Shown: piece after piece, positions 9,515 to 59,199 of the stretch | How the letters are laid out: each line of letters opens with the position of its first letter | Position numbering within the stretch: the stretch's first letter is position 1 | Assembly (NCBI RefSeq): GCF_029873635.1 | Contig: NC_080421.1 | Location: 3,905,629 to 3,969,628 of the forward strand | DNA: 64,000 nt | Source of the DNA: Malania oleifera | Lineage: Eukaryota; Streptophyta; Magnoliopsida; Santalales; Ximeniaceae | Direction: 5' to 3' | Position numbers and translations under genes: made by a program | Notes under the pieces: model-generated | Told to the model about the DNA's origin: nothing | The model's input: only the letters and a program-made list of their open reading frames with translations | The model's database searches: none

Positions 9515-9944
9515 TGTTGTAACAAAAAATTGAACAGCCTCCACGATCCCTGATCACAACCACTTGAAAAGAGATAAATAATTAAGGCTTGGAAGATCAA
9601 GGGTATACTCCGGGGGATCTCTCTGATGCCCAAGTTATCGGCTTGAGAGGTTTTTTATATAACAGTAAAGTAGAGTTTAAAATGAAATACCTTAACCTCT
9701 TCTCTAAATCCTTATTTATAGTGATGAAGTTTGACCCAAGGGTAATGTGTCATTTATTGACAAATTATGGTTCAAGGGTGAATTGCTCCAATTGTTATAG
9801 CATTGGCGTAAATTGCTCTAGTTATCATGAAACTGGTGTCAATTGTTCTGACTGAACAATTGACTTAGGTGGTAATTGCCTTCATCAATGTTAGACTTTT
9901 GTCTCCTTTAGACTTATGGTAAGTGATATATTCAGGGTATATCA
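9515..9944 (-). repeat. 5' LTR of the non-autonomous element
   Basis: 430 bp. On the minus strand it starts TGATATACCC and ends TTACAACA. Aligned along its whole length with 7083-7516. Contains the CCGGGGGATC block (minus: GATCCCCCGGAGTATACCC) common to all Tat-type LTRs in the window. Confidence 0.88.
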
Positions 9945-30306: not shown

Positions 30307-33300
30307 TCAGATATCTTCGTCTGAACTTACAAAATCTAGTTCGATCATCTTTTCTGTAGTCAACTTGGTGATTTTCCCTGCTGAATCCTGCACATGCTCA
30401 ATTTTCTTTCTTTTTGTATCCCGTTGTTTTCCAGTGACATCTGAAGGATCTAGTTTCATGGTTGATGATATCCTGAAGAATGGTTGATCGAACCAGTATT
30501 AAGCAGCAAGACACTCATAAACAGCAAATAGAGATTACAAAATCGATGAACTTTGCTTCACCTCTTGCCAGACTTGGGCATTTGTTGGTTTGGCAGTGCA
30601 GATCCTTTATTTGTATTTGTAGGACATGTTTTTCCTGTAATAAATTAAAATTGTCTAAGGGAATGTGATAAAATGAATTCAGCAGTAGCATAGAAGGTAG
30701 GATATGGAACCTGTGATCTCCGTAAGAAATCTTATTCCTTGTGAATGTGTATTTGTTGTGACTTTGCCTGCATTACTGTCCAAATGTTCATTCAAATAAT
30801 ATATTCAGTCTACTAATAATAGTAACTAGAAACCATATCTAATGGCCACTAGCATGAAAATGGGTGCATTCTGTGCATGTGCATATGTGGTGAGAGAGCA
30901 AGACAGAGAGATCTTGTATTAAACGTTTATGATTCAAAAATGCTTCCTCTTTCGAAAGGGGAAAAGGCATATTAAGAAATATGTGAGGCCAATTTGGATT
31001 TGGTTAATGGAAGTGCTGATAAATTGTGATTTTATATTCTATCAAAAACTCAAAGTAGCTTAGGATCTTCATTTCAAGTCACCTCTACTTCCAAGAGGGG
31101 AGTCATTAGAAAGAAAATGTACATAATTTAGCTGGTGAATAGATGTAGGAAAAGCAAAAATAATATGAAATATTTCAACAAATATTATCTTCCCAACAAC
31201 CAAATAGAGCACTTATGAATTGCTCAAGTATTTAAATAAAGTGATCAGTATGAGCAAAGAATAATTAAACCTTAGTGCCTTCTTCAATCCTTCCACAGAC
31301 AACAACTTCACTGGCTTTGCAGGCTTTACTATGTTTGTCCTGTCAACTAGAGGGTCAACCAGATAAATTCCTTCTGACTTGCGAGCACCTCTAAAGGCAG
31401 TTCTTAAGTTACTGAGATTTTTCAAAAAAAAAATGACAGTAATTAAAATGCACAGTTATGAGGAGAAAATCATAAAATATGAAGCAAGTCTTGTGCAAAT
31501 CATAAGCAACAACCACTGGATAGAGATTCAAATGGAGATGAACATTGAAAACCTACCCTCCTGTAAGCTCAGTTCGCGTGGTGGAATACTTTTCAGATGC
31601 TTTCTATATAGAAAATATTAGAAAAAAGAATCCATTAATAAATTGATTCACAATAAATTGTAAAACAATGCGAGTGTAGAGGAGTCATCCTTACCGACTT
31701 ATGGAATTTGCAAAATATCCCACGGCGTCTGAAATATAAAACAACCAGAGTCAGAATATGATGAAATCCTTACCATGACATTGTTTAAAAATTCAAAATA
31801 ATTGAGGGAAAAGGGAGGAGAGTTCTGTAAATTGCTTTCTTCCACAGTAGGATTTGGAATAAACTGGATAAGAATATATAGATGCTATGAAAAATTTTGA
31901 AAACAAACCAAGCAAGGACGTGTTAAGTTTTCATAGCTAGAGTACTTTCAATAACTTCTGAAAATGATTCTTTCCCTTCTCTCTCTTGACCTTTGTCTCT
32001 TTATCAATTTGCAATTTTTATAAATATTTTAGTTAAATATCAAACCACACATGTTAGTTATAGAAACAGGATTCTATTTTTATTCTCAAGCTGCCCTAGA
32101 TGTAATTAATCATCGTGGAGAAACTAGCTTGACAGGTGATCGTGGATTCAAGTTACAAGACAAATTTAACCAAACTGGCTGAAACTCATCTCATTCAACA
32201 TGCCACCTACGTTTATCAGGGACATAAACTTAAGATTAACCTCTCCCAAGAATATCTCATTGGGTTAAAAAGTTCGCATTTTAACATCCAGAAACATCAG
32301 AAGCTTCCATAATGCCATCACAGTAGAATTATTGGACCTTAATATTGAGGTAAAAATCATCAACTTCCAGTAAATTCCTAGCAAAACCTTCTCAGACACT
32401 GGATTCTCAGGTTCATTATTGAAGCAATCTGGAACGGTTAATCAGTGTAGGAGATGAAAGATTAACATGGGACACAAATCAGAATATGGCCAACTGTTTT
32501 CTTAGAGTCTGTCTTCCAATGTCTAAAAGGAGATTGCATGAAGTCAAGATTTGATGCCAAAGATGGTATCATAGCTGCCACTTTCACAGGACAAATTGGA
32601 CCATATGTTCATCGTTAAGACTTAAGGAAACTTTTATGACAGACCATGCATCCTAAAATGTTGATAATTCAGTGCCATTTTGGTCCTAACATGGAAAAAC
32701 ATGGAAAAAAAAGTGGTGATAATTAGAGCAGAATCCCATATTTAGCCATTGGAAATTAACAGAACAAAACAAAGCAGAACATAATATGTTATACTTTTCA
32801 CTAAGATAGCAACAGATTATTCTGTTAGGGAAGAACAATAAGTAAATAGTGTAGCAGTTAAGAACATATAGAAGACCTGCAGTAAGTGCACACACTTTTA
32901 GCTCAAAATAATTACTGAATATTGAGCACCAAGTACACAAGACAAAATTTTTGGTGAAGGACACCCTTAAAACCAAAAATTTAGTCTTTTAGACCAATTT
33001 ACACAGAAAACAACAATTTCAAGTGCATCTTGTTATAACAATCTCAAAATACAATATAGATGGAGTTTCCATAACATACTTATTTATAACTAGTGTACAG
33101 GCCATCCCATCCTTCCTTTTTCCTTTGCAAATCCCATAATCAACCGAAGAGCCCATCTTTAAAACTTGACTAACAGAATAAACACTTAAAGAAAATCCAC
33201 TGCCCTGCAAGGAAAATAATCGAAGTTAAACTTTGGTAAACCTCACAAATTCCAATTAATGTACAATGTTAGAAAATTTCCATAAGAAAGACATTCAACG

Positions 33301-36300
33301 TATTTTATGAACCATGATCAAGTAAAGATGAGGAAAGAAATTCAAAATATACCATACTCTATTTCTGTGGAGACAATCAAACTACGATGCAATTAGCTTT
33401 TCCTTCTATTCCTATTGATCAAATCTTTATCATGTAGAATACTACTTCATCATCTCTCCCCTTACTCTTATGTTTGGCTTAGTAATGGAGATTCTACCAT
33501 ACTTGATTATTAAGTGGTGAGAGGGACCAAGAGCGATTTATATAGAAATCCATAAGTGACTTAATCCATAAAAAAGTTATAAACATATATATGAATTTTC
33601 CCTTCTTTCAAGGCGAATGTACATTTGATTAAATGTGATACATTCCTTAATGATACACTAATTAAGGATATTCATGACTTTGACTAATGCATCTCCATTA
33701 TTTCAATGTATCTTGATTGGGAGGCTCTTTGTTAACCATTGATATACCCAAAATTAGTAGACATACTCATGAGCAAATTCGATTATAAAACTACCATTGA
33801 TATCTCACATAACCATGCTTGAGTTATTTATAACCCCCCGATACGATTACAAAATCACTATTGATATCCTACATAACCGCCCTTAAATTATCTATAACCC
33901 CCTAAACATAATAAATGCTTGTAAATACTAAGTTGAAGGAGGGTCTGCCTCCGCCACTATAAAAAGGGGATCCCAAGAGAAAGTAAGCATCTCATTCTCA
34001 CTCACTCTTCGCTTACTGTCGTAATCTAAATCTCCCATTTCCTAACTTAGGCATCGAAATGATCCCCCGGAGTACAACCTAGATCCTTCAAGCCATTCTT
34101 ATTTGATTCCTTTCAAGTAGTCGTGATTGGAGGACAATTTAACAAAAGTCATACTGTTGTAAATGAACTTGAAATTGCACATCGAAATTTAAACACAACA
34201 ATAATGAAGAATAAACATGGAACACACACACAGTATATCTGAAAGCAAGAACAACAACGCAAAGATTTACATGGTTCGGCAATGCCTACATCCACAGGAG
34301 CAATCGGCAAAGGTTTTCACTATGAAAATGTCAAAATAAACAATACAATACAATTCACAATGATCTTCCTCTCTTCTTCTTCCAGAATATACCCAGAATG
34401 GTATATTTATAAACACTTCAAAGGTTTCCCTCCAAACACCCAACTATATTAACGTTCACATTCAAATTTTGAAATCAATCTCACTACCTCAAGCCAAATA
34501 GTCGATTGATTGGCCCAATCAATTAACTGTTTCTGACAGAATGTAATTGTCTGAATTTTGGATCAAACCATCGACTGATTTGGCCAAATAGTTGACGATT
34601 TGCTGCTGCTCCTTAGCACAAGTGAGTTTCAACTATGTTTTCTTCCTTGTTTATGCACTCCATTAAGTATATGAGCCACAAAAACACAACAATCTCCACC
34701 TTGGCGAGTATACGCCCCTTAAGAGAACCTAAAAACATAGCTCGTTGCTCCACCTTGACCTTGGAACATTAGGTTGGGTCTGTCTCCCTTCTAGCACTTG
34801 GAGACATGAAGTAAGTTCAAGCAATGCTTGAACTTTTCAATAGTAATCGGTTTTGTCAAAATGTTCGTTGCGTTTTTAGATGTGTGAACTATCTCCAATA
34901 CAAGTTCACCTGAAGTAATCAATTCCCGGACCTTGTGGAACCTTACATCAATATACTAGGTTCTAGCATGGTACACTTAATTCTTCGCTTAGATAGCGTT
35001 CTAACTGTCACAACGTAGGATCATGCATATCTGTTTACATGAATTTGGCTTGAATATTTGAGCATGATTATAGAGTATTCAATTGAGTCAATTGTGCTAT
35101 CTTAGTTATTTATTTAGGCACTTCAAGTTCTTTTAAGTGCACGTAAGCTATTGTGGTTTGATGGATGTTAAATGCATACAATCAGAGAACAATCAAACTT
35201 AAGTTGAGACTTAAAACACTTGTAAGTAGTTGAGCCATTCTCATTCCTTAGAGAGGATTTATCATATTTGGTGTTATTATTTTTTTTTTCTATGACATTA
35301 TTTTGTTGCATGGTCTCATTATTTTTCTTATTTGGTTATCTTTTGGGAATGTCATTACATGGTTTGTGGTATGCTTGCTTGATTATACTTAGGAAGTGAT
35401 AAAGGTCAATGTAGGATAAAGTTTGAGTCTTTCAAGCCTACCGTGATTTTATTCATTAGATGCTACTTTGAGCCAAAATGTAAGCCTTTTTTTTTGTTAA
35501 CCTATATATTTTCGTACCCACTCCATATTGGAGTTAAGCCTGAAAGTAATACTTTCCTACCCTTAAAATTTGAGTATCTGCTAGGGGGGATAAATTGTTG
35601 GTTTGAAAAAAAAAAACAAAAGAATGAGAAATTTATTGAGATGGTTTGTATTGTTGCTTGCAAGCTTCATCAATGAAAAAAATAATAATAAAGAAGAAAA
35701 AAAAAAATGAGAAGAAGAATGTGTTGAATTGAAAAGAAATCAGTTGAAAGAAGAGAGTAAATTGTTGAGAAGTGGTGTATATTATACAATTTTTGGAAGA
35801 CCCCTAGTATTTACTTGAATCTATTTTTGAATTCCCTTATCCTTTGTTCTTTTCAACTTAACCCTAGCCCCATTACAACCCTTTCAATTGACCTTTTGAT
35901 CCTAAGTGGGTTTGGTGGAATGATTGGTTGAGTTCCCAATAGATGATATTCTTTCCGTGAAATCAATTTTTTCTTATGCCTTTATTCACATGCATTTACT
36001 CTTTCCATACATTTGAGTGGGCAACCCTTCTAAAATCTTGGAGTGATTCTTCAATGAGTATTATATACCCTTGTGAGATTTGAAGTCAAAACTTTTGTTC
36101 AAGTTGTTCTCGACATTGTATGTATTTGGGTTTGATGGTAAGATGGTTATTGGCTTAACACACACACATGTATTCTAAGTGTTTTGATAAACAAACTTTG
36201 ATAGCACTATTGATCTTTTGAGAATGCCTTATTTTGAGTGTTTGAATATTCTTGCTTAATTTTGCTTCAATTGCTAAGGTCTAGCAATAAGCTGGTTGGG

Positions 36301-39300
36301 GGGTGTGATGAGGCATAAAAGTGCACTCTAAACATTACTTTTTCTTGTTTATTTGCTAATTTATAAGGACAATTTGAATATGTTAGTGGTAAGTTTTTGA
36401 CTTGATCTTCATTTTATAAAAATTTTAATTCTAATGAATTTTCAATGATTTTTATCATATGAATGAAGTTAAAAATATTTGGAAGTCAACCCTTAGCATA
36501 AATGAAGAAGATAAGTCACCTAGATTGGAGGAAAGAATATTGGATATGATATAATCCCGTTTTGGAAGAGTCTCCGCGCACCGTTCAGTATTTTCATCAT
36601 AACTATCTCATCCGATATCGGTTTTGGGCGATTCAAGTTGCGTTGAAAACCTTACATAATGGGCTCCAATTTATCCCGAAATAGCCTTTTGCTAACTCAG
36701 ACTTTTACTAGGTCAAAAGTGGGCTGCAATCCAAGCCCGTCCAAGTCTAAGATTCTTTAGGAGACAGCCTGGGCATGTTTCTGTAATTTAATCATAACTC
36801 TCTCATATGATATTGGATTGACATGATTCAAGTGGCGTTGGAAAGCTTACGAAAAAAGCTACAATTCATTGTGAGATAGTATTTCGCTAATATGGACGTT
36901 TACTGGGTCAAAAGTGAGCCGCAATCCAAGCCCGAAAACCAGAGGATATTTTTCAGCATTTTTTTTTTGTTTATGTTATTCCCTTTTTTAGGGTTTTGAG
37001 AGGGAGATGTATAAGCAAAACATTGTGTGAAGAAAGGGGACGACTGGGGGCTGGGTTTTGTGAAGGTTCTCTTGAGAGTTTATTTTTCTTTCATCTTATG
37101 ATGAGGAACTAATTTCCTAGCCTTGGCTAGGAATGAACTTGATCAAATAAAGGTATTTCAATTTGCTTTTAATCCATAGTGTTGTTCTTCAATGTTTTTA
37201 TATTTTCTATTTATTGTTCATCAATTGTTATTTGTTTTATTTCGCGCTTGAATATTCATAGATTTGAATCTCTTCATGGATTTAGTCATGCTTTTTCCAT
37301 AGAATTGTAAGGATTCATGAATATGTTCAAGACAAACTATTAATTTTGTTACATCACTCTTCTGCTGCGATATTGTCTTTGGATATATTGTTGTCGTTAG
37401 ATTTTGTTAACAAAGTTAATAGCCTTTGAGTTTTTAACGAGATGAATAATATTTAGAAAATTTACTTTTGAATTTATCAAAGATTTGTAATTCTATATCT
37501 TCGGATTGGGGATTTGGGATATGAAATCTCCAATTGAGAAAACCAATGGATTAAAAATAGATTGATTATCTGATTTGTGAGAGGGATTCCTGATGCCTTG
37601 GTTCTTGCAAACTTGATTTTCCATCCACAAAAATAATCTTAATTTTAATTTTTTCTAAAAAGAAGTCATTTTTTTTCCTTAAAAATCATTTACTATTCTT
37701 TTTATTTTTATTTGCCCATTTGTGTTCCTTTTTCCATCTCCCTATGGAATCGACACCCTAAAGTTGTGCTACAACTACCGCATTATTCTTTGAACGTAAT
37801 CAAATTTTGGCGCCATTTCCGAGGAGATGGTACAAGAAGGAACATTGTGAGGAATATATTTTACTGAATTGATTCATCAAGGGCGGTAATCTCGTTCCTC
37901 TCTCTGTTATTTTATTTAGTTTTATTTTTTTTGGTTTAGCAAAGTAGTTTATTTTTATTTTTATTTAAGTGTATGCATAGGTATAGGGACGAATTAGGTA
38001 GATTCGCAAAGAGACTCGACATTGATTCTAATACGGACATTCTCTCTCCGAATCTATTTAATATGCCTCCTGATTCAGACACAACATCCATTGCATCACA
38101 ATCTTCATTCACAATGAGTCATCATGAGGACCAACCCATTAGAACTCTTCAAAAGTATCTCCATCCTACACGCACTACCACACCCTCATGTATCATGCTT
38201 CCACCTAATGTGCTACATTTTGATTTTAAACCAGGGATGATTCCACTTCTCCCCACTTTTTATGGACTTGAAAACGAAAACCCATATGTGCACATTAGGG
38301 AATTTGAAGAGGTAGTTGCAACTTTTCATAATCAACCTAGTACAATGAACGCAATCAGACTTAAATTTAAAAGAAAGAGCAAAGAGTTAGTTGTATTCAT
38401 TGAGACCACGTTCAATTGGGTCATGGGCTGAGATGACTCAAGCATTTTTTCATAAGTATTTTCCACATCACAAAACAAATGCTTTGAAGAGATAAATCTC
38501 AACCTTTGTTCAGAAAGAGAGTGAAACTTTATACCAAGTTTGGGAGAGATTTAAAGAATTGTTAAATTTGTGTCCCCACCATGAGTAAGAGAATTGGCGC
38601 TTAATGAGCTATTTTTATGAGGGACTTACACCTAGAGAGCGCCAATTTGTGGAGATGATGTGTAATGGTGAGTTCTTACAAAATGATCCTAATAAGGCCA
38701 TTGAATATTTGAATGATATAGCAGAAAAAGCCCACACATGGACAATACCTAGTGCTATTGAAAGCACAAATAGGTCACGACCTACAGGAAACTCAAATGG
38801 TGGTGGAATTTACCATCTCAAGGAAGAAGATAACCTAAAGGCTAAGGTTGAGATGCTCACTAGGGAGCTAAAGGTGTTAAAGACTATGGACTTAAAGCCA
38901 ACACATGTGGCTAACCATGCAGAGTCTATTAGACCATGTTTTGTGTGTGGCGAGGTAGATCACCTCGCCCAAGAGCATCCCACATTTGCTGAGATGAGAA
39001 GGATGTATGAGGAACAATGTAACGCCTTAGGTGTGTACAAAAAGCCTTTTACACCTTTCTCTGATACCTATAATCCGTGGTGGCACAATCACCCCAATTT
39101 TAGTTGGAAGTCTGGAAACCAGCCACCTACACAACTCCCTATATCTTATCCTGCACCATATCATGCACCTTCATCTTCTAGGAGTCCTTTACAAGACACT
39201 TTGCATGCTTTTATTGAGGCACAAGGTAAGACTAACCAAAAAGAATCTCTAATTACACAGGTTGTTGAAGAAAATAAGGACATAAAGAGCCAAGTGTCCA

Positions 39301-42300
39301 AATTGATGAGTTCCTTGAGTGTGAATGAGCGAGGTAAGTTTCCTTCTCAAGCTCAGTCCACACCCCCTGGTCAACACATGGTGCCAAAATTTGATTATGC
39401 CCAAAGAATAATGTGGTAGTTGTAGCACAACTTAGGGCGTCGATTCGACAAGGAGATGGAAAAAGGGACACAAATAGGCAAATAAAAATCAAAAGAATAG
39501 TAAATGATTTCTAAGGAAAAACAAATGACTTCTTTTTAGAAAAATTTAAAATTAAGATTATTTTTGTGGATGGAAAATCAAATTTGCAAGAACCAAGGCA
39601 TCAGGAATCCCTCTCACAAATCAGATAATCAATTTATTTTTAATCCATTGGTTTTCTCAACTAGAGATTTCACATCCCAAATCCCAAATCGGAAGATATA
39701 GAATTACAAATCTTTGATAAATTCAAAAGTAAAATTTCTAAATATTATTCCACTCGTTAAAAACTCAAAAGCTATTAACTTTGTTAACAAAATCTAACGA
39801 CAACAATATATCCGAAGACAATATTGTAACAAAAAAGTGATGTAACAAAATTAATAGTTTGTCTTGAACACATTCATGGATCCTAACAATTCTATGTGTT
39901 AGGCCAAGTAGTTAAGGGTTTTTCATTCCAATTGTGTTTTAATGACAACAACTCATTAGCAGTTCTTTAAGATTACTAACCTTTTTCTCTAGTCCAGCTC
40001 AGTTGCACAAAGTGGCTCAAAGCAAGCAAGTTTCAAACCAACCAAAAGCAACATGTGACATGACCAAAACTTGACCACTCAAACCAAAGCACTCTTGGAC
40101 TCTACATAACAAGCACATGTTCTAAGTTGAGTGCGAGAGTTAGAGAGATTGTTTCTGTAATCCTTAATGTATGGTGTGACTCAAAAGAACAAGCAAGAAA
40201 TGGGCATTTCACATGAATATCACTGCATAAGATGTCTAAAAACCCTAAAACATATTTTATTAAACCTAAGACATGTTAAAGTAGATCAGAGATCACTTCT
40301 CAAATAAAGATAAGGACCTTTTTACTTCAAACTTAAAGTAATTTTCAAAATAGTGAAAGAGGCCTCGTCGACGAACACAGGTCTTCGTCGACGACAACAA
40401 CACAGACCCTCGTTGACGTACACAAGACACTTGTCGACGAGAATATACCGAGAGTACCTAAAAGTTCAGAGCACCTTCGTCGACGAATACAGGGGATTCG
40501 GCAACGAAGTCTGTGCACATTTCGTCGACATACACAGGGTACTCGTCGACGAAAAGAAACCGAGACCTACCTAAATTCAAAACCAGTAACTTGTCGACGA
40601 ACGCAGGACTTCATCGACGAAATAACTGAAGAGCTCATCAACGAAGGCGAGACCTCGTCGACGAATGTCGGGCTGCAGACCTCATTTAATGCACCAAAAC
40701 AGCTAGTTTTCATCTTGTCTCATATCAATAAATGCCCAACAGCTCTCCAACGCCCAGCTCGCCCCTTTGGTGTTTAAAATAGGTCTTTTGCATTAACTTC
40801 AAGCTGTGACGCTCATTAGTTGTTGAAATCATTCATTGTACATTTACTCTAGGGTTTCATTGTGCAACCACTTGCCCTCTTACTCTTACTTTTGTTTACA
40901 CTCCATTGAAAAAGAGAATATAGTGTGAGGATTACATTGTGATATTCAACTCAAGAGGAACATTTAAGATTGTATCTACCTCTCTTAAACTACTTGTATT
41001 GTAAGACTCTTTGTAAGCCATTGTAAGAGCTCTTTGTGAGCAGCTGTTTGTATAGGCTTCTCCACCGAAAGGAGGATCATATAGTGGATTTTGGGAATCC
41101 TAGAGTTGGTCTCAAGGCATGGACGTAGACGGGGTGCCAAACCACGTTAACATCGCTGTGTTAAGCTTTTCTTCTCACTTCTCTCTTATGTTGCTCATCC
41201 ATTGTCATTCGTTTTTATTTTTATATTGTGATATAATACTCTTGTTCTTGGCAAGATTTTTTATGTTTGTAGAAAATTTGCATATTCGCGAAAAACATCT
41301 ATTCACCCCCCCCCCCCTCTAGACGCTTATCCGAGCCAACACTATGGAAAAAACATAACTAAATCCATGAAGAGATTCAAATGTATGAATATTCAAGCGC
41401 GAAATAAAACAAATAACAATTGATGAACAATAAATAGAAAATATAAAAACATTGAAGAACAACAATATGGATTAAAAACAAATTGAAATACCTTTATTTG
41501 ATCAAGTTCATCCCTAGCCAAGGCTAGGGAATTAGTTCCTCATCATAAGATGAAAGAAAAATAAACTCTCAAGAGAACCTTCACAAAACCCAGCCCCCAA
41601 TCGTCCCCTTTCTTCACACAAAGTTTTGCTTATATATCTCCCTCTCAAAACCCTAAAAAACAGAATAACATTTTTTTTTTTTTTTTTTAAAACACTGAAA
41701 AATATCCTCTGGTTTCCAGGCTTGGATTGCAGCTCTTTTTTGGCCCAGTAAACGTCCATATTAGTGAAATACTATCTCACAATGAATTGTAGCTCTTTTC
41801 GTAAGCTTTCCAACGCCACTTGAATCATGCCAATCCGATATCAGATGAGAGAGTTATGATTAAATTACAGAAATATGTCCACGCTGTCTCCTAACGAATC
41901 TCGAACTTGGACGGGCTTGGATTGCAGCCCACTTTTGACGTAGCAAAAGTCTGAGTTAACGAAATGCTATTTCAAGATAAATTGTAGCCCATTATGTAAG
42001 GTTTTCAACGCAACTTGAATCACCCAAAACCGATATTAGCTGAGATACTTATGATGAAAATACTGAACGGTGTGCGGAGACTCTTCCAAAACGGGACTAT
42101 ATTATATACAATATTCTTTCCTCCAACCTAGGTGGTTGATCTTCTTCATTTATGCTAAGGGTTGACTTCCAAATATTTTTAACTTCATTCCTATGATAAA
42201 AATCATTAAAAATTAATTAGAATTAAAAACTTTATAAAATGAAGATGAAGTCAAAAACTTACCACTAACATATTCAAATTGTCCTTATAAATTAGCAAAT

Positions 42301-45300
42301 AAACAAGAAAAAGTAATGTTCGGAGTGCACTTTTATGCACTTATCATAGCACAACTCTGCTTTACTATATACCCAGCTCTTTGACCAAACCAGTAAGCCA
42401 TAAAGCTACCTTTGTGGTTTTAGCAACTACCATATATTCAGATTCAGTTGTAGACAATGCCACCACAGATTGTATTATGGACCTCTAACGAATAGGTCCT
42501 CCCATAAGGGTAAATACATAACCCGTTGTAGACTTTCTGTCATCCATATCCCCTGCATAATCAGCATCAACAAACCCCACAACTGATGAACTATCCTGTT
42601 ACTTGCTGAACATGATGCCATAACTAGAAGTACCTCGTAAGTATCTAAAAATCCATTTAACGGCTTCACAATACTATCTATTCAGATTAGAACGATACTT
42701 ACTCACCGCACTCACTACACGTGCTAAGTTTGGTCTTGTACACACTATGACATACATTAAACTCTCCGTGGCGCTAGCATATGGGACTTTGACATGTCCC
42801 AAATATCATCATCCGTACTTGGGCATTCAGTAGTAGACAATTTAAAGTGACTCACTTGAGGTGTACATATCAGTTTAGAATCAGCCATACAGAACCTTTC
42901 CAACACCTTCTTCACATAACCGCCCTGAGATAACCACAACCTCCCTGCAGTTCTATTTCGACGAATCTCCATCCCAAGCATCTTCTTGGCTGGACCAAGA
43001 CCCGTCATGTCAAACTCTTTATGCAACAGATTCTTTAACTGATTTACCTCAATTAAATTTTTCGCAACTATTAACATGTCATCGACATACAACAATAAAA
43101 AGATAAAAGAACCATCATCAAACTTATTCACATACATGCAGCAATCATACTCACATTTTCTTTAACCTATCCTGATCATATAGAAATCAAATCTTTTATA
43201 CTATTGTCTGGGAGACTATTTCTGTTGAAACAGGAAAAAAAATAAAAAATAAAAAAATGAAACGATTTGGTATAAGACCAAACCGTCAATGGTTTCAAAC
43301 GGGTTGAGGGTCTTTAAGTTGCGAGAAGCCTAATATTATTTATATCTTCACTCTCCCATTTGAACTTTTCTCTCTTTCTCTGTCCCCCCCTTCCTCTAAT
43401 TCGTGTCCCACTCTCTCTTTCTCCCAAATTCTTTCCACTCTCGCTCTCCAATCGTCTCTCTCTCCTCTCAACTTGCCGGCTCCTCTCTCCTCGACAAGGT
43501 TTAAGGAAATTAGGGTTTCATCGTCCAAACACCAGGCACAGTTTTAGGAACATGGTAGGCATATCTTCAAGAATAGGTAAGGGGATTAGATTATGTCAAT
43601 TTATTTTGAAATTGAACCGATTAAACTTGAGTATGTGAATACAAAAATATTATATTAGATTTTATAAATGAATCAAACGTATGAAAATGATGATTTTGGT
43701 TTATTATACAAGTATTCGAGAAAGATTAAAGTGAGTAGGGTGATCATCTATTTTTTCCTATAAAATATATATTTTGAGTTAAATTAAAACTATCAAGGTG
43801 ATCATACCCTTATTTTCAGCAAAATATACCGAGTATATTATGATGTACTTTTTCCAATCAATTTATTAGATTATGATTTAACACTCAAATAGTGTGACAT
43901 GAGAATGATTTATTTTTATTGCATAATTAAACCTATTGGAATTTTTATGGTGTTATACAGCAAAAGTTGTCGTATTATACTAATTTCTTGAATTGTTGGG
44001 AATAATGTGGATATTGTGAATTTGACGTTTTAATACCAATCTTGTGGATGGTTGGAAAATTATGGAAAGACTTGCGAATTATGTGTTGAGAAAATGAGAT
44101 CATTTTACTATTTTATTATGTAAATTGCAATATATGGTTTAAAAACCCTGATGGACCAAGTGTGTTGAAAGCTCGGTACCATAACTAGAGAGAAATATTA
44201 GTGCAGTCACACTGTTGTGGTAGTGTAAGCGGTGGATAGTCGATTTAGCCTGAGAAAGGTTGTGTACCCTCCTGGGTCCAAACCAGGATGCGGTAGGCAA
44301 ATCATACTTACAGACATATTACTTTGACTTAGTTTTGGTCGGCCAACCAAGCTAAGTCCAGTCTTTGAACCTCACAACCCAATCATGGGAGTTAAACATG
44401 AAGTTAGTCCAAAAAGGGAGGTTCTTTTATGCATCTTTGTGGATTTATGTAAACGGGGCCATCTATTGAGCCGAAATTATGTTTCGAAGGAAAAATATGT
44501 ATTTTTTAATTATATAGGTGTGGGTACAGTTTACAAATGCCATTTCATTTAAAGTTAAATTAATGGATGTATTCTTCTTATACTAAAACTCATTTTAGCC
44601 ATACACTGATAATAATCTATTCCTTTTTACTGAGAGATGTCTCACCCCAATAACCATATCATATTTCAGGACATACAGGGAATCAAGTTTAGCGAGCTTC
44701 GGGACGGGGTTTAGATAATATAGTTTAGAGTAAGTGCTTGCATGACATTGAATTAAATATGCTTTTGTATTCCTTGTGATGTAATAATGTTACATGGAGA
44801 TACCTATGTAATTGTGGTGGTTTAGTACTCTGATATGGTATTTGAGGTTTAAATTATTTCCGCTGCTAGCATTGATTTGATTGATGGAAAGTCACACCCA
44901 GGACCCCACTGGGTTTGGGTCGTTACAATTGTAGTATCAAAGCAAATTTTTGGAACACTACAGTTAGTATCAGAGTTATAAGAACCCTATCGGGTTTGGG
45001 TTATCACAGTTGGTATCAGAGCTATAGGAACCCTATCGAGTTCGGGTTACTACAATTTCAGCCCATAAAAAGACTTCTTCAACTTACAAACTAAGTGTCC
45101 TTGTCCTGATTCACTAAATCCCTCCAACTGTACCATATAAATATGTTCCTCCAAGTCACCACAAAGAAATGTCGTCTTCACATCCATTTGTTCTAAATGC
45201 AAATCACAATGAGCTATTAACCCCAACACTACCCTAATGGAAGTGTGTCGAACACATGTAAAAAGATTTCATCATAATTCATTCCTTTATTTATAAGTAC

Positions 45301-48300
45301 CCTTTTGCCACTAATCGTGCCTTGAATTTCTCTCCTTCATTTTCTGAAGTTACTTTCTTCTTCCTATATACCCATTTGCAACCTATCGCCCTCTTCCCAT
45401 CTAGAAGCTCCACCAACTCCCAAGTTTGATTCTTATACAACAATTTCATTTCTTCAATCATAGCACCCATCCACCTATTTTTCTCCTGATCGTGCACTAC
45501 CTCTTGAAAAGTAGTTGAGTCATTGCAACTGATAATGAAAGCATAAGATACTAACTCTTCAAACCCATACTTTAGAGGTAGTCTGATAGTGGATCTGGAT
45601 CTCCATATAGGAATATTGTCGACTTGTTGGTTTCCCTAACTAAAACTCCCTGCAATTGGAGGACCAAGATCATTGTCATTGCCCTAAGTTTCTAACTCCA
45701 TCTACACAACATGTTTGTCTCTACTCTAGTTTTCTAGCTCTTGTTTCTCTTCATCAAATTCTTGAGTACGCTTCACCATAACTTTCTCATCGAAAACTAC
45801 ATCCTTACTGATCAACACCTTGTTTTCCATTGAATCTCACAACTTGAACCCCTTCACACTCTTGATATTCCAAAAAGATGCAGCGTCTAGACTTTATGTC
45901 AAGCTTCAATCTCTCCTCACTAGACACGTGAACATAGACTGAACAACCAAATACTTCCAATCCGAAATAGCCTACTACATTTCCCGTCCATACCTCTTCT
46001 GTCACTTTCCCCTCTAGTGATGCCTTTGGTGATCGATTTACCAAGCATACTAACTGCCTCGACCCAGAAGTTCTTCAGTAGCCTTGTATTAAGCTTGAAG
46101 CACCGAGCTCTTTCAGATAGAGTTCAGTTCACCCTTTCAACCACACCATTTTGCTTAGGTGTCCGACGAACATTGAAATGTCACTTAATGCCCTGCTGCT
46201 CACAAAACTCCATGAACCTAAAATCAACGTACTCGGTCCCATTGTTTGATCTGAAGCATTTGATTCTCCTTCCTATCTGGTTTTCCACTTTAGTTTTCCA
46301 CAACTTAAACCTAGCAAATGTATCAGACTTGTGCCGCATGAAGTATACCCAGACTTTTCGTGAGTAGTCGTCAACAAAACTCACAAAGTAAACATGTCCA
46401 CCTTTTGACGCTACTCTAACCAACCCCCAAACATCAAAATATATATAATCAAGAATACCTTCCATCTTGTGAATAGTTAATTTGAATTTTTCCCTATTTT
46501 GTTTCCTAAAAACACAAAACTTGCAAAAACTCAGCTTGCATGCTTTCATACCTTTCAAGAGTTTTCCCTTGTGAAGTTCTTTCATACCATATTCACCCAT
46601 ATGCCCAAGCCACATATACCACAAAACGGTTTCATCAAATTCTGAATTTACAGCTGCAGCCCCACCTACAACAGTAGTCTCCTGCAGTGCATAAATATTT
46701 CCATCTAACTTTTGCCCTTTCATCACCATCAAATTACCTTTGCACACTTTCATAATCCCACTTTCAAACTTGTAATTAAATCCATTACAATCCAAAGTGT
46801 CAAGTGAAATGAGATTTTTCCATGGGTCCGATATGCGTCTTACATTGCTCAAGGCTCTTACAGCACCATCAAGTATTTTAATTCTAACACTTCCAATGTC
46901 AATGATTTTACAAGACACCTCATTGCCCATAAGAACTAAACCTGAATTTACCAACCTATAAGTGTTGAACCACTCCTTATTTGGAGTCATATGGTAAGAA
47001 CATGCCGAGTTTAGGATCCAAGAGCCCATGAGGCGATCTGACCTCAACAAAAATGAAGCAAACTGAATTTCCTTCTTGAATTACATTTGTTGATTTTGAA
47101 GTCTCTTCATGCTTTTCAGCATTTCCTTTCTTCCAATCTGGACAATTTAGTTTAACGTGCCCTTTTTTACCGCAATTATAGCACCGGATATCCTTGTTCT
47201 TCTTGGATTGAGTTCAAGATTTTTGACTCGATCCATTTCTGAATTTTCCTCTCCCACGATCATGGTTACCTTTCACCACAAGTCCTTCTCCGTGTGAATT
47301 TTCATCGCAAATTTTCATCCTTTGATGAAACCCCAATAAGGCACTTGTCACCTATTCCAAGTTTAGGGTCTCTTTCCCCCGTGTAAGAGTAGTAACTAGA
47401 TTCTCATATGTGTGTCGCTGACAAGGAATTCAATAGCTTTAACGTCATATCATCCTCTTCAAATTTCACATCAACACGCATTAAATCACTTATGATTTGA
47501 TTAAATGCATTGATGTGTTGATATAAGTTTGAACCATCCACCATCTTAAGCCAATAAAGACACTGCTTAAGAAATAATTTGTTAGTAAGGGATTTGGACA
47601 TGTATTGGCATTCAAGCTTTTGCCAAACAACCGCGGGAGAATCTTCCTCCATGACATGATAAAGAACTTCGTCGGCCAGACATAGCCGTATTGTAGCAAC
47701 AGTCTTTACCTCTAATTCTCTCAAATTAGCCTCATCCATACCTTCCAGTTGAACACCATACAAAGTCTTCACCATCCCTTGTTACACAAGCAAATCTTTC
47801 ACTCTCCTCTGCTACAAACCAAAGTTTTCGATCCCATCAAATTTGACAACATCAAATTTTGCAGATGAAGTGCCCGATGGCATAACAACAACGCTCTAAT
47901 ACCAATTTGTTGTGAATGAACTCGGAATTGCACAACGGAATTTAAACGCAACAATAATGAAGAACAAATATGGAACACACCAGTATATCTGAAAGCAAGA
48001 ACAACAACACAAAGATTTGCATGATTCAACAATGCCTACATCCACGAGAGCAATCGGCAAAGGCCTTCACTATGAAAATGTCAAAGTACACAATAGAGTG
48101 AATTAATGATATTCCTCTCTTCTTCCAGAATATACCCCGAATAGTATACTTACAAACACTTTGGAAGTTTCCCTCCAAACACCCAACCATATTAACATTC
48201 ACATTCAAATTTTAAAATCAGCCTCACAGCCCCAAGCTAAACAGTTGACTGATTGGGCCAATAAGGCGACTATTTCAGACAGAATGTAATTGTCTGAATT

Positions 48301-49671
48301 ATGGATCAAACCATCCACTAATTTAGCCAAACAATCGACGGTTTGCTGCTGCTCCTCAGCACAAGTGACTTTCAACTATGTTTTCTTTCTTTTTTATGCA
48401 CTCCATCAAGTATATGAGCCACAAAAACACAACACGTACGATTTTTGGCCGCAACAACCATTATAGATACATGACTTTAGTCATTGTATCTTACACACCA
48501 ATAAATGAGGTACTTGACTTTGGTCAATGTACCTTTATAAATTCATTAATAAGTTAAGATAAAATTTAATACTTAATTAATCATTTATATAAAGACACTA
48601 TGCAATCATGAAGATTACCCATACATACATATATAAATTTCCAGCATTCAAAAGTTTCATACCATAGCATCTTTGCGAACATTGCAATTGAAAAGTGCAA
48701 AGATTGTGCCAGCCTGTTCTTTCGAGTGTTTCTGATAAGCATCTCCAAACAAGAAAACTGAAACAGTGCTCTCATCCAAACACCCAAATTTCCATATAGA
48801 ATAACTCTTTCCGGTAGAACTTGTCTTTGGATTCCCCTTCTCCGTCAAAACCCCAACGGTTGCCCAACAACCCGAAAGAGTATCACCCACCAACAAGTTC
48901 CTATGAGATCATCAAATGTAAATTATCCCTAACCACAGCAATATAATTGAAATAAATCCATATAATAATAACTGAGTGAGTGCATTCAATACTTTATGGT
49001 CAGTAGTCGGACGAATCGAATATCTGAAAAACGATTGCTAATCTCTGCCGGTGAAATCAGCTGATTTCTGTACAAGAAAAGATGAAGCAACAAGAACAAA
49101 GATTCAAAATCATGGGATTTTATGCACTTTCATTTCAGAATAAAAACATGGCAATGTATGATTACAGAAAATCTTCAGTTGCCCTCCGGAGGGACTGGGA
49201 AGGATTCTTCATTTGGATGTTTCTATATGAGATTTAATCAGCTAAACCTACCGAATCCGCAGACCCGAGAACTTCTCAACCTGAACATCATTTGAGTTCT
49301 TCGACCCGTTAAATTTGGGGGTTTGCTTGGTGGGCTCAGGCTCGGGCTCGTAATCAAGGTAGTCTTGAACAGCGTCCCTGAAGACAGACATGTCCGCATT
49401 CCGCATCCGCCATGAGGGCGATCCATCATCTGAAGGGTACCCTGCAAAATCAAGGGAAACAGTGAGAAACCCGTGTAGATTTTCACGAGAAAATGGACAA
49501 AAAATTGCAAACCCTAGTGTGATTCAAAGAGACACGCGTAAAGGGTTAGAGAGAGAGAGAGAGACCGGAAGAGTGGGGTTGCAGCAGGACTGAAGGAGAA
49601 GCAGGAGGGGTTTCTAAAACCCTGTCTTGAAGGGATAGGAGGAGGTCGAGGTCGTCCTGGTGGTTTGACAT
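30307..49671 (-). CDS. MCM10: MCM10 replication initiation factor, 11 exons
   Basis: Minus-strand exons: 49671-49566, 49441-49252, 49067-48993, 48900-48663, 33204-33080, 31728-31695, 31603-31557, 31411-31271, 30775-30711, 30634-30562, 30472-30307. All introns are GT-AG and phases join to 420 codons (419 aa). It opens [20 protein letters not shown] and ends [13 protein letters not shown], both typical of plant MCM10. Residues about 100-215 form the OB-fold ([45 protein letters not shown]). A CCCH zinc finger follows (Cys229, Cys239, Cys251, His254), then [23 protein letters not shown]10 binds single-stranded DNA and the CMG helicase and is needed to fire replication origins in the nucleus. Intron 4 (33205-48662, 15.5 kb) splits the OB-fold and is almost wholly retroelements. 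Without them it would be about 0.74 kb. The exons are undamaged, so the gene is probably still expressed. Confidence 0.95.
34155..34691 (-). repeat. 3' LTR of the copia element
   Basis: 537 bp, direct repeat of 47908-48434. Its middle has TCGA-type motifs (AGTCGATTGATTGG, CATCGACTGATTTGG, AGTTGACGATTTG), weaker cousins of the GTCGAC arrays in other LTRs. Confidence 0.9.
36306..37802 (+). repeat. Athila-like LTR, plus orientation
   Basis: 1497 bp. Matches 39392-42346 in reverse complement along its length; shared blocks include the one starting GGATTGGGGATTTGGGATAT. Starts TGATGAGGCATAAAAGTGC, ends TAATCA before the PBS. Confidence 0.85.
39897..41341 (+). mobile_element. Solo LTR, 1445 bp, TSD CTATG
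   Basis: Starts TGTTAGGCCAAG, ends TCCGAGCCAACA. Perfect 5-bp TSD CTATG at 39892-39896 and 41342-41346, and the interrupted Athila-like LTR closes exactly across it. The tail CACCCCCCCCCCCCTCTAGACG resembles the R/U5 of long-LTR Ty1/copia (SIRE/Maximus-like) elements, a tentative placement. Carries a GTCGAC-motif array at about 40360-40670. This is among the youngest layers. Confidence 0.9.
40360..40670. repeat. Array of about 12 TCGTCGACGAA motifs
   Basis: Palindromic cores recur every 16-36 bases: CCTCGTCGACGAACACAGG, CTTCGTCGACGAATACAGG, CTCGTCGACGAAAAG, CTTGTCGACGAACGCAGG and decayed forms. Some are followed by CACAGG or CGCAGG, so the unit is a motif plus a short tail. Confidence 0.88.
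43223..45054 (+). mobile_element. Tekay/Del-like solo LTR with a triplicated end, TSD ATTTC
   Basis: Starts TGTTGAAACAGG, ends GGGTTACTACA, with perfect TSD ATTTC at 43218-43222 and 45055-45059. It sits in the reverse transcriptase region of the copia element. The LTR proper seems to end at GGGTCGTTACA (44927). It is related to the solo LTR at 21.0-23.1 kb, which is in the opposite orientation. No gag or pol inside. Confidence 0.85.
44928..45054 (+). repeat. Three tandem LTR-end/PBS units
   Basis: After the LTR end come three units: 44928-44962 (35 bp, diverged), 44963-45008 and 45009-45054 (46 bp each). Each begins with a primer-binding-like stretch (TTGTAGTATCAAAGC, TTAGTATCAGAG, TTGGTATCAGAGC) and ends like the LTR (ACTACA, TTATCACA, TTACTACA). 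The last matches the initiator-Met tRNA primer site of plant gypsy and copia elements. Confidence 0.85.
47908..48434 (-). repeat. 5' LTR of the copia element
   Basis: 527 bp, direct repeat of 34155-34691, next to the TTGGTATTAGAGC primer site on its left flank. Confidence 0.9.
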
Positions 49672-55717: not shown

Positions 55718-56154
55718 TGATATGCCCATAACAAATCATGCTAATAAGGGCAGGTCAACGCCTGTCCCATACTTTCTCCAGCTCTGACTTTCTGACGAGT
55801 GATTAGCTCCGACCTAATGAAGAGGAGGAGAGATTCACACCGACGCCCTTAAAAGCCGAGTGATAGGCGCGTGCACTTATGGCCGGAGAGCGATGTGCGC
55901 CCCCACGCAATAAATCTAAGCCAACTAGCGGTCAACTCAAGCCCCTCTAAGAAGGGATTGGGAGTACAGGCACAGGTAAGTGACATAACACTATTCTACT
56001 GTTGCATTTAGCCTTCCTAAAAGCCTTCCTCTTACTTAGGCATCAGAGTGATCCCCCGGAGTACACCCCGGATCCTCCAAGCCTTTGTTCTTTTCTTCTT
56101 TCAGGTTAATGAAAATCGAAGGAGCATCCCAACTATTTTTTTTACCCCGCAACA
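55718..56154 (+). repeat. 5' LTR of the Tat-lineage element
   Basis: 437 bp, TGATATGCCC...CCCGCAACA. The block with GAGTGATCCCCCGGAGTACA matches the LTRs at 7.1, 9.5 and 33.7 kb, and the length is nearly equal (430-437 bp). Confidence 0.85.
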
Positions 56155-56174: not shown

Positions 56175-59100
56175 GTTACTTTTAGGAGGCGATGTTATTT
56201 TGCTCTTGACTTTCAAACATTCAAGCAATGCCAACCTCACGCAATTCCACCTCCTTCCCTGATAACAAAGAACCATCCCAATCCATCCAATGGACCTCCA
56301 ACTCATCTGGTGTCAGTAAGGAGGAGTTCCTTGCCTTCCAGAAGGAAATGAAGGACATGCTCAACCAACTCTTACAACAGAAGAGTCAAGAAGGGCACGT
56401 CCTTCCCCAACTGCAAAAGAAAAGCAGCGCAGATAAACAAGCTGACGAACTAAGGGAGAAAGAAGAGAAAACTCACCCCAGTAAGAAGGTAGAAGATGCA
56501 AATAGCGTGGACGTCAACCAACAAAAATCCACTGAGCTCGAGGAAAGAATAAAGAAGATAGATTACATAGAGAAGATGATGAAAGAGGGCAGAACCAGGC
56601 CCTACTATGGGGAAACATCCCTAAAGTGCGCGGAGTCTCCGTTCAGCAAAGAGATCATGGAAGCTCCATTGCCCAGCAGATTCAAGATGCCCACCTTTGA
56701 GAGATACGAAGGTTTGTTTGACCCCATTGATCACCTGGAAAATTTCAAAATATTAATGTAGCTGCAAGGGGCTCCTGACGCCATCATGTGCCGAGCGTTT
56801 GCTACCACCCTTAAGGGTACCGCCAGAGACTGGTATCGAACTCTTCGACCAGGATCTGTTGGTTCCTTTCAAGGGATGGAGCAAATGTTCATCGGCCACT
56901 TCCTTAGTAGCCGGAGAGTTGCCAAAACAACAGGCCATCTAATGAGTATGGTGCAAGGGGACCGGGAGACTTTAAAGAACTTCATGCACCGTTTCAACAT
57001 AGCGACCCTAGAAATCCGCAACTTGGATATGGGGGTAGCCTTGGCCGCCCTGACAACGGCTCTCCAACCTGGAAGTTTCTTATACTCCCTGGGGAAAAAA
57101 CCGCCAGTGGATATGGGGGAGTTAATGATTCGAGCAGAGAAATACATAAACCTGGAGGAGATGATGGACACGAGAGGGAATCGTCTAGAGCGGAAAAGGA
57201 GAAACAACGGCAGAGAATCTGGAGACACGTATAGACCTATAAAAAGGCACGAAACTAGTGCGTTGCAAACAGGTCAAAAGAGTAGAGGACAGCACAACAA
57301 GTTCTCCACCTACACACCTTTAAATGTACCGCGCTTAGAGTTGCTGATGCAGATCAAAAAGAAGGACTACGTCTCATGGCCTGAACCTATGCGAACGCCT
57401 CTACATAAGCGGAACATGTCCAAGTTCTGCGCATTCCATAGGGATCACGGCCACGACACAGAAGAATGCATTCAGCTGAAGAAAGAAATCGAAGTCCTAA
57501 TAAGAAGGGGACATCTGTCAAGATTTGTAAAGAAAGAAAATCCACAAAGGGAACCACTCGAGCAGAGGAGGCACGGCGCAAAAGAGAAGGAAGAGCAAGC
57601 TATTGGGGAAATTGCGGTGATCTTCGGAGGATCCGCCAGTGGAGGAGATAGTGGGAGTGCACGCAAAAGATATGCTAAACAGGTGCTGACAATGGAAAAG
57701 GGGGAAACCAGTAGCAAACGAAATAAGAAAGGTGACGCCATAACCTTTGACAGCGGAGATGAAGAGGGAGTGCAGCAACCGCATGATGACGCACTAGTGC
57801 TCTCCCTACTCGTAGCCAATTACATGGTTAGAAGTATACTGGTAGACAACAGGAGCTCGGCCAACATCATGTTCTGGTCGGTCTTGGTAGGGATGAAGAT
57901 CAGCAAGGAACGATTGAAGCCCGTCTCGACCCCCTTGGTAGGATTTGGGGGAGACACTGTTCACCCCTTGGGAACCATCACGTTACCAGTGACAATAGGG
58001 ATGACCCCGCAGCAGGTAACAACGTTGACAGAGTTCCTGGTGGTTGACCGACCTTTAGTGTACAATGTCATCTTGGGTCGTCCTTTCCTTAACGCAGTTC
58101 GAGCGGTAACATCAACATACCACCTCAAAGTTAAGTTCCCTACACCACAAGGGATAGGATATGCCAAAGGAGATCAGGCCGCTGCCCGGAGTTGCTATGT
58201 AATGGCCTTGAAAGGGAAGATGGAGGCCAAAGAAGCTTTAACGGTGGAAGACCTAGAGGTCAGAGGAGAGTATCCCCAGATCAGTACATTATACGAAGAT
58301 ATCAACCACATACCACTACAAGGCTACCAGGAGAGAAGTATACAGATCGGGAATCACTTGCCCAACTCCTTGAAAGCGGAGTTAACTGAACTCTTGGACG
58401 AATTCTCTGATTTGTTCGCATGGTCGGCAGCAGACATGCCCGGCATCGACCCTGCTGTGATAGAGCACAGGTTGCAGGTCAACCCCAACCACCGACCTAT
58501 AAAACAGAAAAAAAGGAGCTTCGCGATGGAACGGATCAAAATAATTGACGAAGAGGTGACGAAACTGTTGCAGGCCAACTTCATCCGAGAAGTGGACTAC
58601 CCCGAGTGGCTGAGCAATGTGGTCCTGGTCAGGAAACCCAATGGAAAATGGCGCACCTGCATAGACTTCATGGACTTGAATAAAGCGTGCCCAAAGGACA
58701 GCTTTCCTCTCCCTCGAATTGATCAGCTAGTGGATTCGACCTCGGGACACGAGCTCCTCAGCTTCATGGACGCTTACTCAGGGTACAACCAAATCCCTAT
58801 GAGTCCAGCTGATGAGGAAAAAACTTCTTTCATCACCGAAAGGGGTTTATATTGTTACCGGGTGATGCCCTTCGGCTTAAAAAATACGGGGGCCACATAT
58901 CAGAGGCTAGTGAACAAGATTTTTAAAGAACAGCTCGGAAAAACAATGGAAGCTTACGTGGACGATATGTTGGTGAAGAGCATGCAAGCAGGGCAACATT
59001 GTAAAGATCTGAGGGAAACTTTCGAGCTCCTCCGCCGGTACCACATGAGGTTGAATCCCTCAAAGTGCGTGTTCGGCATTTCTGCAGGTAAATTCCTGGG

Positions 59101-59199
59101 CCTTTATGGCACTCATCCGCGTGCATCAGGGCAGCCCCACATCCGGCCTCACATACGAGCGGCTGCGGGACGCTTGGAGATGGCAGCTTCCAAGGACTA

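Follow-up and report, generated by a model that had tools for sequence, protein, structure and literature searches.

Introns rich in transposable elements (TEs) have been described in several plants. In grapevine (Vitis vinifera), 2,697 large introns, >80% repetitive, have been counted, in which long terminal repeat (LTR) elements are prominent (PMC3058033), and intronic heterochromatin has been described in >10% of rice genes (PMC7145194). Precedents for heterochromatic introns exist in Arabidopsis and rice, where introns of transcribed genes contain TEs and are handled by IBM2-type factors (PMC4417168, PMC7145194). Here we analyse intron 4 of MCM10 in Malania oleifera, which lies in a window of 64,000 nucleotides (the whole stretch analysed, contig NC_080421.1, positions 3,905,629 to 3,969,628 of the forward strand; coordinates below are those of the window). 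Very probably, this intron of a single-copy gene has grown from about 73 bp to 15,458 bp by means of LTR elements nested one in another. Since TE-rich introns of grapevine and rice have already been described, intron 4 is of a known kind: it is a striking but ordinary TE-swollen plant intron, and the Gypsy-type block within it is an odd, scrambled element. Like the large grapevine introns it consists of repeats among which LTR elements stand out, but it is a single intron of a core replication gene, with six nested insertions and an ancestral length, about 73 bp, that can be derived. With the introns handled by IBM2-type factors it shares the presence of TEs inside a gene that is presumably transcribed; it would belong with them if its chromatin were repressive and its full-length transcript depended on IBM2. 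The locus would offer a clear, layered record of about 210-fold growth, from 73 bp, in an intron of a replication gene that is present once and has kept its reading frame, and intron 4 makes a good test case for splicing across TE-filled introns.

The gene and the intron are placed as follows.

30307..49671, minus strand: MCM10, coding for 419 aa in 11 exons (spliced frame, splice sites, Pfam, PDB)
48662-33205, minus strand: intron 4, 15,458 bp, phase 0, inside the oligonucleotide/oligosaccharide-binding fold (OB-fold; spliced frame, Pfam)

MCM10 was rebuilt on the minus strand from 49671 to 30307 as 1260 coding bases for 419 residues, with GT...AG introns and no internal stop in the spliced translation of its 11 exons. 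The OB-fold and zinc-finger core of the protein is recognised both by Pfam (MCM10_OB at residues 92-218, 2.3e-57; zf-primase at residues 221-266, 3.2e-14; both well above cut-off) and by PDB chain 7y01, named MCM10 by its depositors, which aligns without a gap over residues 86-273, across the exon 4/5 junction (2.9e-72). Structures 3ebe and 3h15, which we take to be from Xenopus, match more weakly. Exon 4 (48900-48663) joins exon 5 (33204-33080) in phase 0 after residue 203, across a GT...AG intron, and because this junction falls within MCM10_OB (92-218), intron 4 lies inside the OB-fold. The introns measure, in order, 124, 184, 92, 15458, 1351, 91, 145, 495, 76 and 89 bp, and the frame stays intact over the consensus GT/AG junction of the longest, as befits a spliceosomal intron expanded by TEs. 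A sequence-only reading of this DNA had proposed that the two exons join in phase within the OB-fold, that all 11 exons are intact and that the 15.5-kb intron is made of nested retroelements with LTR promoters in both orientations. The spliced frame, Pfam and 7y01 agree with the first of these proposals and the single 419-aa frame without internal stop with the second, while the intron indeed holds 15,458 bp of nested LTR-type repeats; LTRs are found in both orientations, any promoters in them being putative. That reading had also named a second intact MCM10 as one finding that would undo it. When the assembly (1,494,336,490 bases, 510 contigs) was searched with the protein, no second MCM10 locus was found, all 10 of the 10 matches at E<=1 lying in the window locus. 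A literature search on MCM10, Arabidopsis and introns found nothing on this intron among the titles listed.

The original length of the intron follows from what remains outside the outermost repeat, R0.

48647..48662, minus strand: original donor-side intron piece, 16 bp, outside R0
33205..33266, minus strand: original acceptor-side intron piece, 62 bp, outside R0
33267..33739, plus strand: R0, outermost solo-LTR-like repeat, left part, continuing at 48462-48646; TG..CA ends
48462..48646, plus strand: R0, right part, ending 16 bp from the splice donor; copies elsewhere in the genome

The right flank of R0 recurs at no fewer than 39 other places in the genome (among the best 40 of 124 candidates, window included), and in six of the seven fetched copies (L099, L100, L101, L102, L104, L105) the sequence that matches the left part leads on into the right part. 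Two of these, L099 and L101, have an internal gap; in the seventh, L103, the left match ends 49 bases short. The outer flanks of the intron are therefore themselves a repeat, which sets the ancestral intron at about 73 bp (62 + 16 bp minus one 5-bp target duplication), a length consistent with four other MCM10 introns of 76, 89, 91 and 92 bp. Growth to 15,458 bp amounts to about 210-fold. The sequence-only reading had put the ancestral intron at about 0.74 kb and the growth at about 20-fold, which is wrong: it counted R0 as original sequence, and we reject the 0.74-kb intron because 33267-33739 and 48462-48646 are the two parts of a repeat that stands in one piece elsewhere in the genome.

Inside R0 the remaining elements are arranged from the outside to the inside.

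33740..34154 and 48440-48456, plus strand: L1, Gypsy-type solo LTR inside R0, TG..CA, target duplication ACCAT
34155..48434, minus strand: Copia inside L1, interrupted, in MCM10's orientation (domains, LTRs, flanking pentamers)
43223..45054, plus strand: L3a, solo LTR in Copia, target duplication ATTTC
35016..42346, no single strand: Gypsy-type block in Copia, rearranged (parts given below)
39897..41341, plus strand: L4, solo LTR within the inverted arm of the block, target duplication CTATG

Six insertions can be resolved in this way: R0, L1 and Copia, then L3a and the Gypsy-type block in Copia, and finally L4 in the block. Repeats with target duplications fill the space between the splice sites; three of the five duplications are exact (ACCAT, ATTTC, CTATG), those of R0 and Copia agree in 4/5 positions, and no duplication around the Gypsy-type block reaches the normal length. 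Copia has the hallmarks of a Ty1/copia element, namely TG..CA LTRs, a primer-binding site (PBS), the order gag, integrase, reverse transcriptase and a target duplication, its PBS and RNase H end having been read by eye. Pfam domains follow on the minus strand in the order Retrotran_gag_2, zf-CCHC, Pol_BBD, gag_pre-integrs, rve and RVT_2, and the piece at 42475-42681 has no Pfam match. The Copia LTRs (34155-34691 and 47908-48434) are 87.9% identical (Kimura two-parameter distance 0.135), which would correspond to about 5 or about 10 million years if 1.3e-8 or 6.5e-9 substitutions per site and year are assumed, rates that are not tied to this lineage. L4 occurs at its whole length (1-1445) at 24 or more other places in the genome (42 matches including itself; best 40 of 3605 candidates scored), and some of its matches form same-strand pairs 8.6-10.7 kb apart, like both LTRs of complete elements. 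LTR ends elsewhere in the window (56031-56106, 9553-9737) are similar to L1, in which a TATA-like box was read by eye near 33957.

Two side observations touch these elements. At the end of L3a (44900-45059), U5-end/PBS-like units are repeated with a 46-bp period (TTAGTATCAGAG / TTGGTATCAGAGC), and look as though primer-site sequence had entered the LTR more than once. About 6.5 kb from the MCM10 start codon, a Gypsy element at 56210-59200 (plus strand) has open stretches of 183 and 812 aa, the longer one with Retrotrans_gag and RVT_1; the LTR end that precedes it resembles L1.

We envision that the solo-LTR-like repeat R0 landed first, between the donor and the branch region, which would be the sole part of so short an intron that could be opened without harming splice signals, and that it left the donor and the acceptor end intact. 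Later LTR elements would have landed within earlier ones, in an order given by the nesting and with a timing that we infer. Transcription presumably runs through intron 4, which would then be removed in one piece, perhaps with IBM2-type help as for heterochromatic introns. The decayed state of the elements, together with the position of the essential splice signals in the intact 16 and 62 bp, may explain why MCM10 tolerates the expansion. Against this account, the 48663/33204 splice junction is a prediction from genomic sequence, and the duplications at two insertions are imperfect, the flanking pentamers being TACAA/TTCAA at R0 and CATAC/CGTAC at Copia (4/5 alike in each).

The Gypsy-type block is rearranged, and its parts are as follows.

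36306..37802, plus strand: left LTR arm, with a polypurine tract (PPT) before it and PBS and gag after it (alignment, motifs)
39378..39384, plus strand: junction of gag with reversed U5-PBS, microhomology ATGG(T/C)GC (copy comparison)
39392..42346, minus strand: right inverted LTR arm, interrupted by L4 (alignment)

On the plus strand the order is 3' internal region, PPT, LTR, PBS, leader, gag to about 39384, reversed PBS stub and reversed LTR. With inverted LTRs, a left end that is no LTR and a duplication of 0-3 bp, this is no normal Ty3/Gypsy insertion. The surrounding Copia runs continuously over the block's site in 7/8 fetched copies. A 6-bp duplication CACAAC around the block was considered and rejected: a second similar stretch follows CACAAC where the site is seen (5/8 fetched Copia copies, three of which, L041, L044 and L045, read CTGTCACAACGTAGCACAACC), so Copia itself naturally has the CACAAC that flanks the block twice.

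All three edges of the rearrangement fall at landmarks of reverse transcription: the LTR start, the U5/PBS boundary and an internal G-rich tract. At the right edge, the reversed LTR ends in TGATAAG where the left arm starts with TGATGAG. In a comparison of 38 fetched loci, 35 with a match, 20 copies reach the LTR start; eight of the 20 begin exactly at TGATGA with differing flanks, and the others begin a few bases off it, on either side. At the middle edge, gag in five normal copies (L017, L023-L026) reads ATGGTGC (one), ATGGCGC (two) or ATGATGC (two) and continues as AAGAGAATT or a variant of it; in the window, ATGGTGC is followed instead by the end of U5/PBS in reverse. The overlapping match ends had suggested a 17-bp homology between gag and U5/PBS, which is rejected since the five normal copies diverge after these heptamers. 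The stretch from LTR to leader is continuous in 8/11 loci, the window's left arm included, while two loci stop at the LTR end and one has the leader side only. The junction itself is spanned by the window copy only, among the best 40 of 138 candidates, which leaves the idea of a mobile family with inverted LTRs unsupported. At the left edge, a G-rich tract followed by GTAGA stands at this place in 9/10 copies examined, with a run of at least five G in 7/9 (L037 lacks the motif; L036, whose match starts later, was left out). In L029-L035, L038 and L039 the tract in the 3' internal region reads mostly ACATTGAG.ACAATGTTC...GGTTGGGGGG or similar, then GTAGA. Tract and GTAGA resemble the 3' PPT followed by TGTGATGA, which makes the tract a candidate internal PPT.

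To explain this arrangement we propose, with a slight leaning in its favour, that a single faulty round of reverse transcription gave rise to the Gypsy-type block. Strong-stop DNA of the plus strand, made up of U3-R-U5 and the beginning of the PBS, would leave its template, pair with gag and prime antisense synthesis. Antisense copying of gag would reach the 5' end of the RNA, and a normal strand transfer to the 3' end would follow. Synthesis would then proceed through U3, the PPT and the 3' region, the other strand starting at the internal tract, and the resulting molecule, ended at the internal PPT, would insert into Copia. A single error of strong-stop priming would in this way account for each of the three edges and for the order in which the parts stand.

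We give roughly even chances to the wider proposition that the block is a genomic fossil of strong-stop DNA priming on antisense gag, with inverted LTRs and an end at an internal PPT, from a product that could still insert. If true, plants would form palindrome-like products of this kind, which place long inverted repeats within genes, and the block would provide a specific, checkable model of how a reverse-transcription error leaves them. A search for inverted-LTR products of reverse transcription in plants found no such product among the papers listed, judged by titles and abstract beginnings, and the PPT is mentioned only beside the 3' LTR in the part of PMC1142308 at hand. The nearest likeness comes from defective proviruses of human immunodeficiency virus type 1 (HIV-1), for which both inversions and a switch of plus-strand strong-stop DNA to the other co-packaged RNA copy are described (PMC9278108). 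In contrast to these proviruses, the block belongs to a plant LTR element, the proposed switch is to antisense gag, and the end lies at an internal G-rich tract.

Several findings weigh against a single reverse-transcription product. The model requires that strong-stop DNA stopped about midway in the PBS. The block has no normal 5-bp target duplication, but one of 3 bp at most. The names Gypsy and gag come from a 29-aa piece (Retrotrans_gag 0.022, below cut-off), a match to the Rfam family snoR71 and motifs read by eye, and the frames at 37940-38431 and 38589-39419 have no Pfam match. Besides the PPT, the 3' region of the window copy has a further G-run at 35584, which lessens the weight of an edge at such a run. 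Finally, the arms need not be sisters. Their identity is 93.7% when they are aligned pairwise and 92.9% within a multiple alignment, yet among 20 LTR copies (from the 38 fetched loci, the others not covering the LTR) the left arm is nearest to L072 (94.0%), while the right arm is nearest to the left (92.9%). The best tree sets the arms apart, the left with L067 (support 87/91) and the right with L071 (86/94); a tree in which they are constrained as a pair is not rejected (approximately unbiased test, p 0.361). Arms that are not sisters would be given both by two packaged RNAs of different origin and by a rearrangement of two elements at the DNA level.

Such a rearrangement is the strongest alternative, and we regard it as a serious possibility, somewhat short of even. 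Two or more nearby elements of the family, in opposite orientation, would have suffered deletions, and microhomology end joining would have fused gag to the reversed LTR-PBS, the remainder being trimmed away. Arms that need not be sisters, the short microhomology at the junction and the target duplication of at most 3 bp all fit this course of events, and nested, decayed surroundings favour it. It needs two independent breakpoints, however, one at the edge of the G-tract and one at the U5/PBS boundary, and the succession PPT-LTR-PBS would call for a tandem or circular form.

The intron may also matter to the gene that contains it. Poor splicing, alternative first or last exons and silencing chromatin in MCM10, as the sequence-only reading proposed, are possible consequences that have precedents in the heterochromatic introns of Arabidopsis and rice, and the LTRs in both orientations, a Copia in sense orientation and long inverted arms could possibly affect transcript ends, silencing or small RNAs. 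That the intron has an actual regulatory role, its LTRs giving alternative first or last exons or its 1.5-kb inverted arms making silencing double-stranded RNA directed at the intron or at the Gypsy-type family, is unlikely in our estimate. The LTRs do lie in both orientations, and the arms share 1406 identical columns out of 1539 aligned, among them 24 unbroken identical stretches of 21 bp or more (L4 excluded), which would suit such a role; but one arm is broken by L4, the arms stand 1.6 kb apart and the elements are decayed.

Inverted repeats are prone to misassembly, but an assembly artefact as the source of the intron or of the inverted arms is very improbable, given that L1, L3a and L4 have exact target duplications and that seven of eight other copies show an unbroken Copia over the block's site. 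Least probable of all is that the expanded MCM10 is a dying copy whose function is carried by another locus: no point in its favour was found, the frame is intact through 11 exons, and every protein match falls in one locus of an assembly that may, admittedly, lack sequence.

Within the same genome there is a case comparable to intron 4. A search of the assembly for MCM domains gave 33 matches in 8 loci, and in one of them, on contig C9 (C9:19631138-19645143; L106, L107), two neighbouring portions of the domain are separated by 13,805 bp in which Pol_BBD and SH3_retrovirus pieces of Copia type occur. The largest gap at the C7 locus is 3,569 bp, and about 2.1 kb is enough to contain the pieces at each of the remaining six. 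Against the comparison, the C9 pieces are weak (2.6e-6, 5.5e-4) and PF00493 also matches 14/14 prokaryote control genomes, so that C9, rather than a replication gene, is perhaps a gene in decay or a distant AAA+ relative.

A small nucleolar RNA (snoRNA) appears at first sight to lie within gag of the block.

38480-38587, minus strand: match to Rfam snoR71 (RF00097), coinciding with antisense gag of the block (Rfam, Pfam)

At 47.5 bits this is the sole Rfam match in the window at gathering score. We reject an intronic snoRNA in MCM10, as far as can be read from the DNA, since the match is antisense gag and reads as another element's coding sequence rather than as an RNA gene. snoR71 is handled as a non-coding target class in PMC5513076, and the word 'retrotransposon' is absent from the part of that paper at hand. 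A search for literature linking plant snoRNAs or Rfam to antisense retrotransposon gag found none among the papers listed, judged by title or the start of the abstract. The genome has at least 49 snoR71 matches, all above the Rfam cut-off (best 49 of 390,541 first-look candidates), and 14 prokaryote control genomes have none. All 12 fetched loci (L086-L097) encode gag on the antisense strand, and in six of them the best match contains stops; two of the three query peptides of this check were taken from two of these loci. Retrotransposon gag can pass for snoRNA genes in the annotation of plant genomes, and the snoR71 family itself is possibly misannotated, or else an RNA carried by retrotransposons: read antisense, its Rfam consensus is open throughout and matches Retrotrans_gag above cut-off (6.2e-6).

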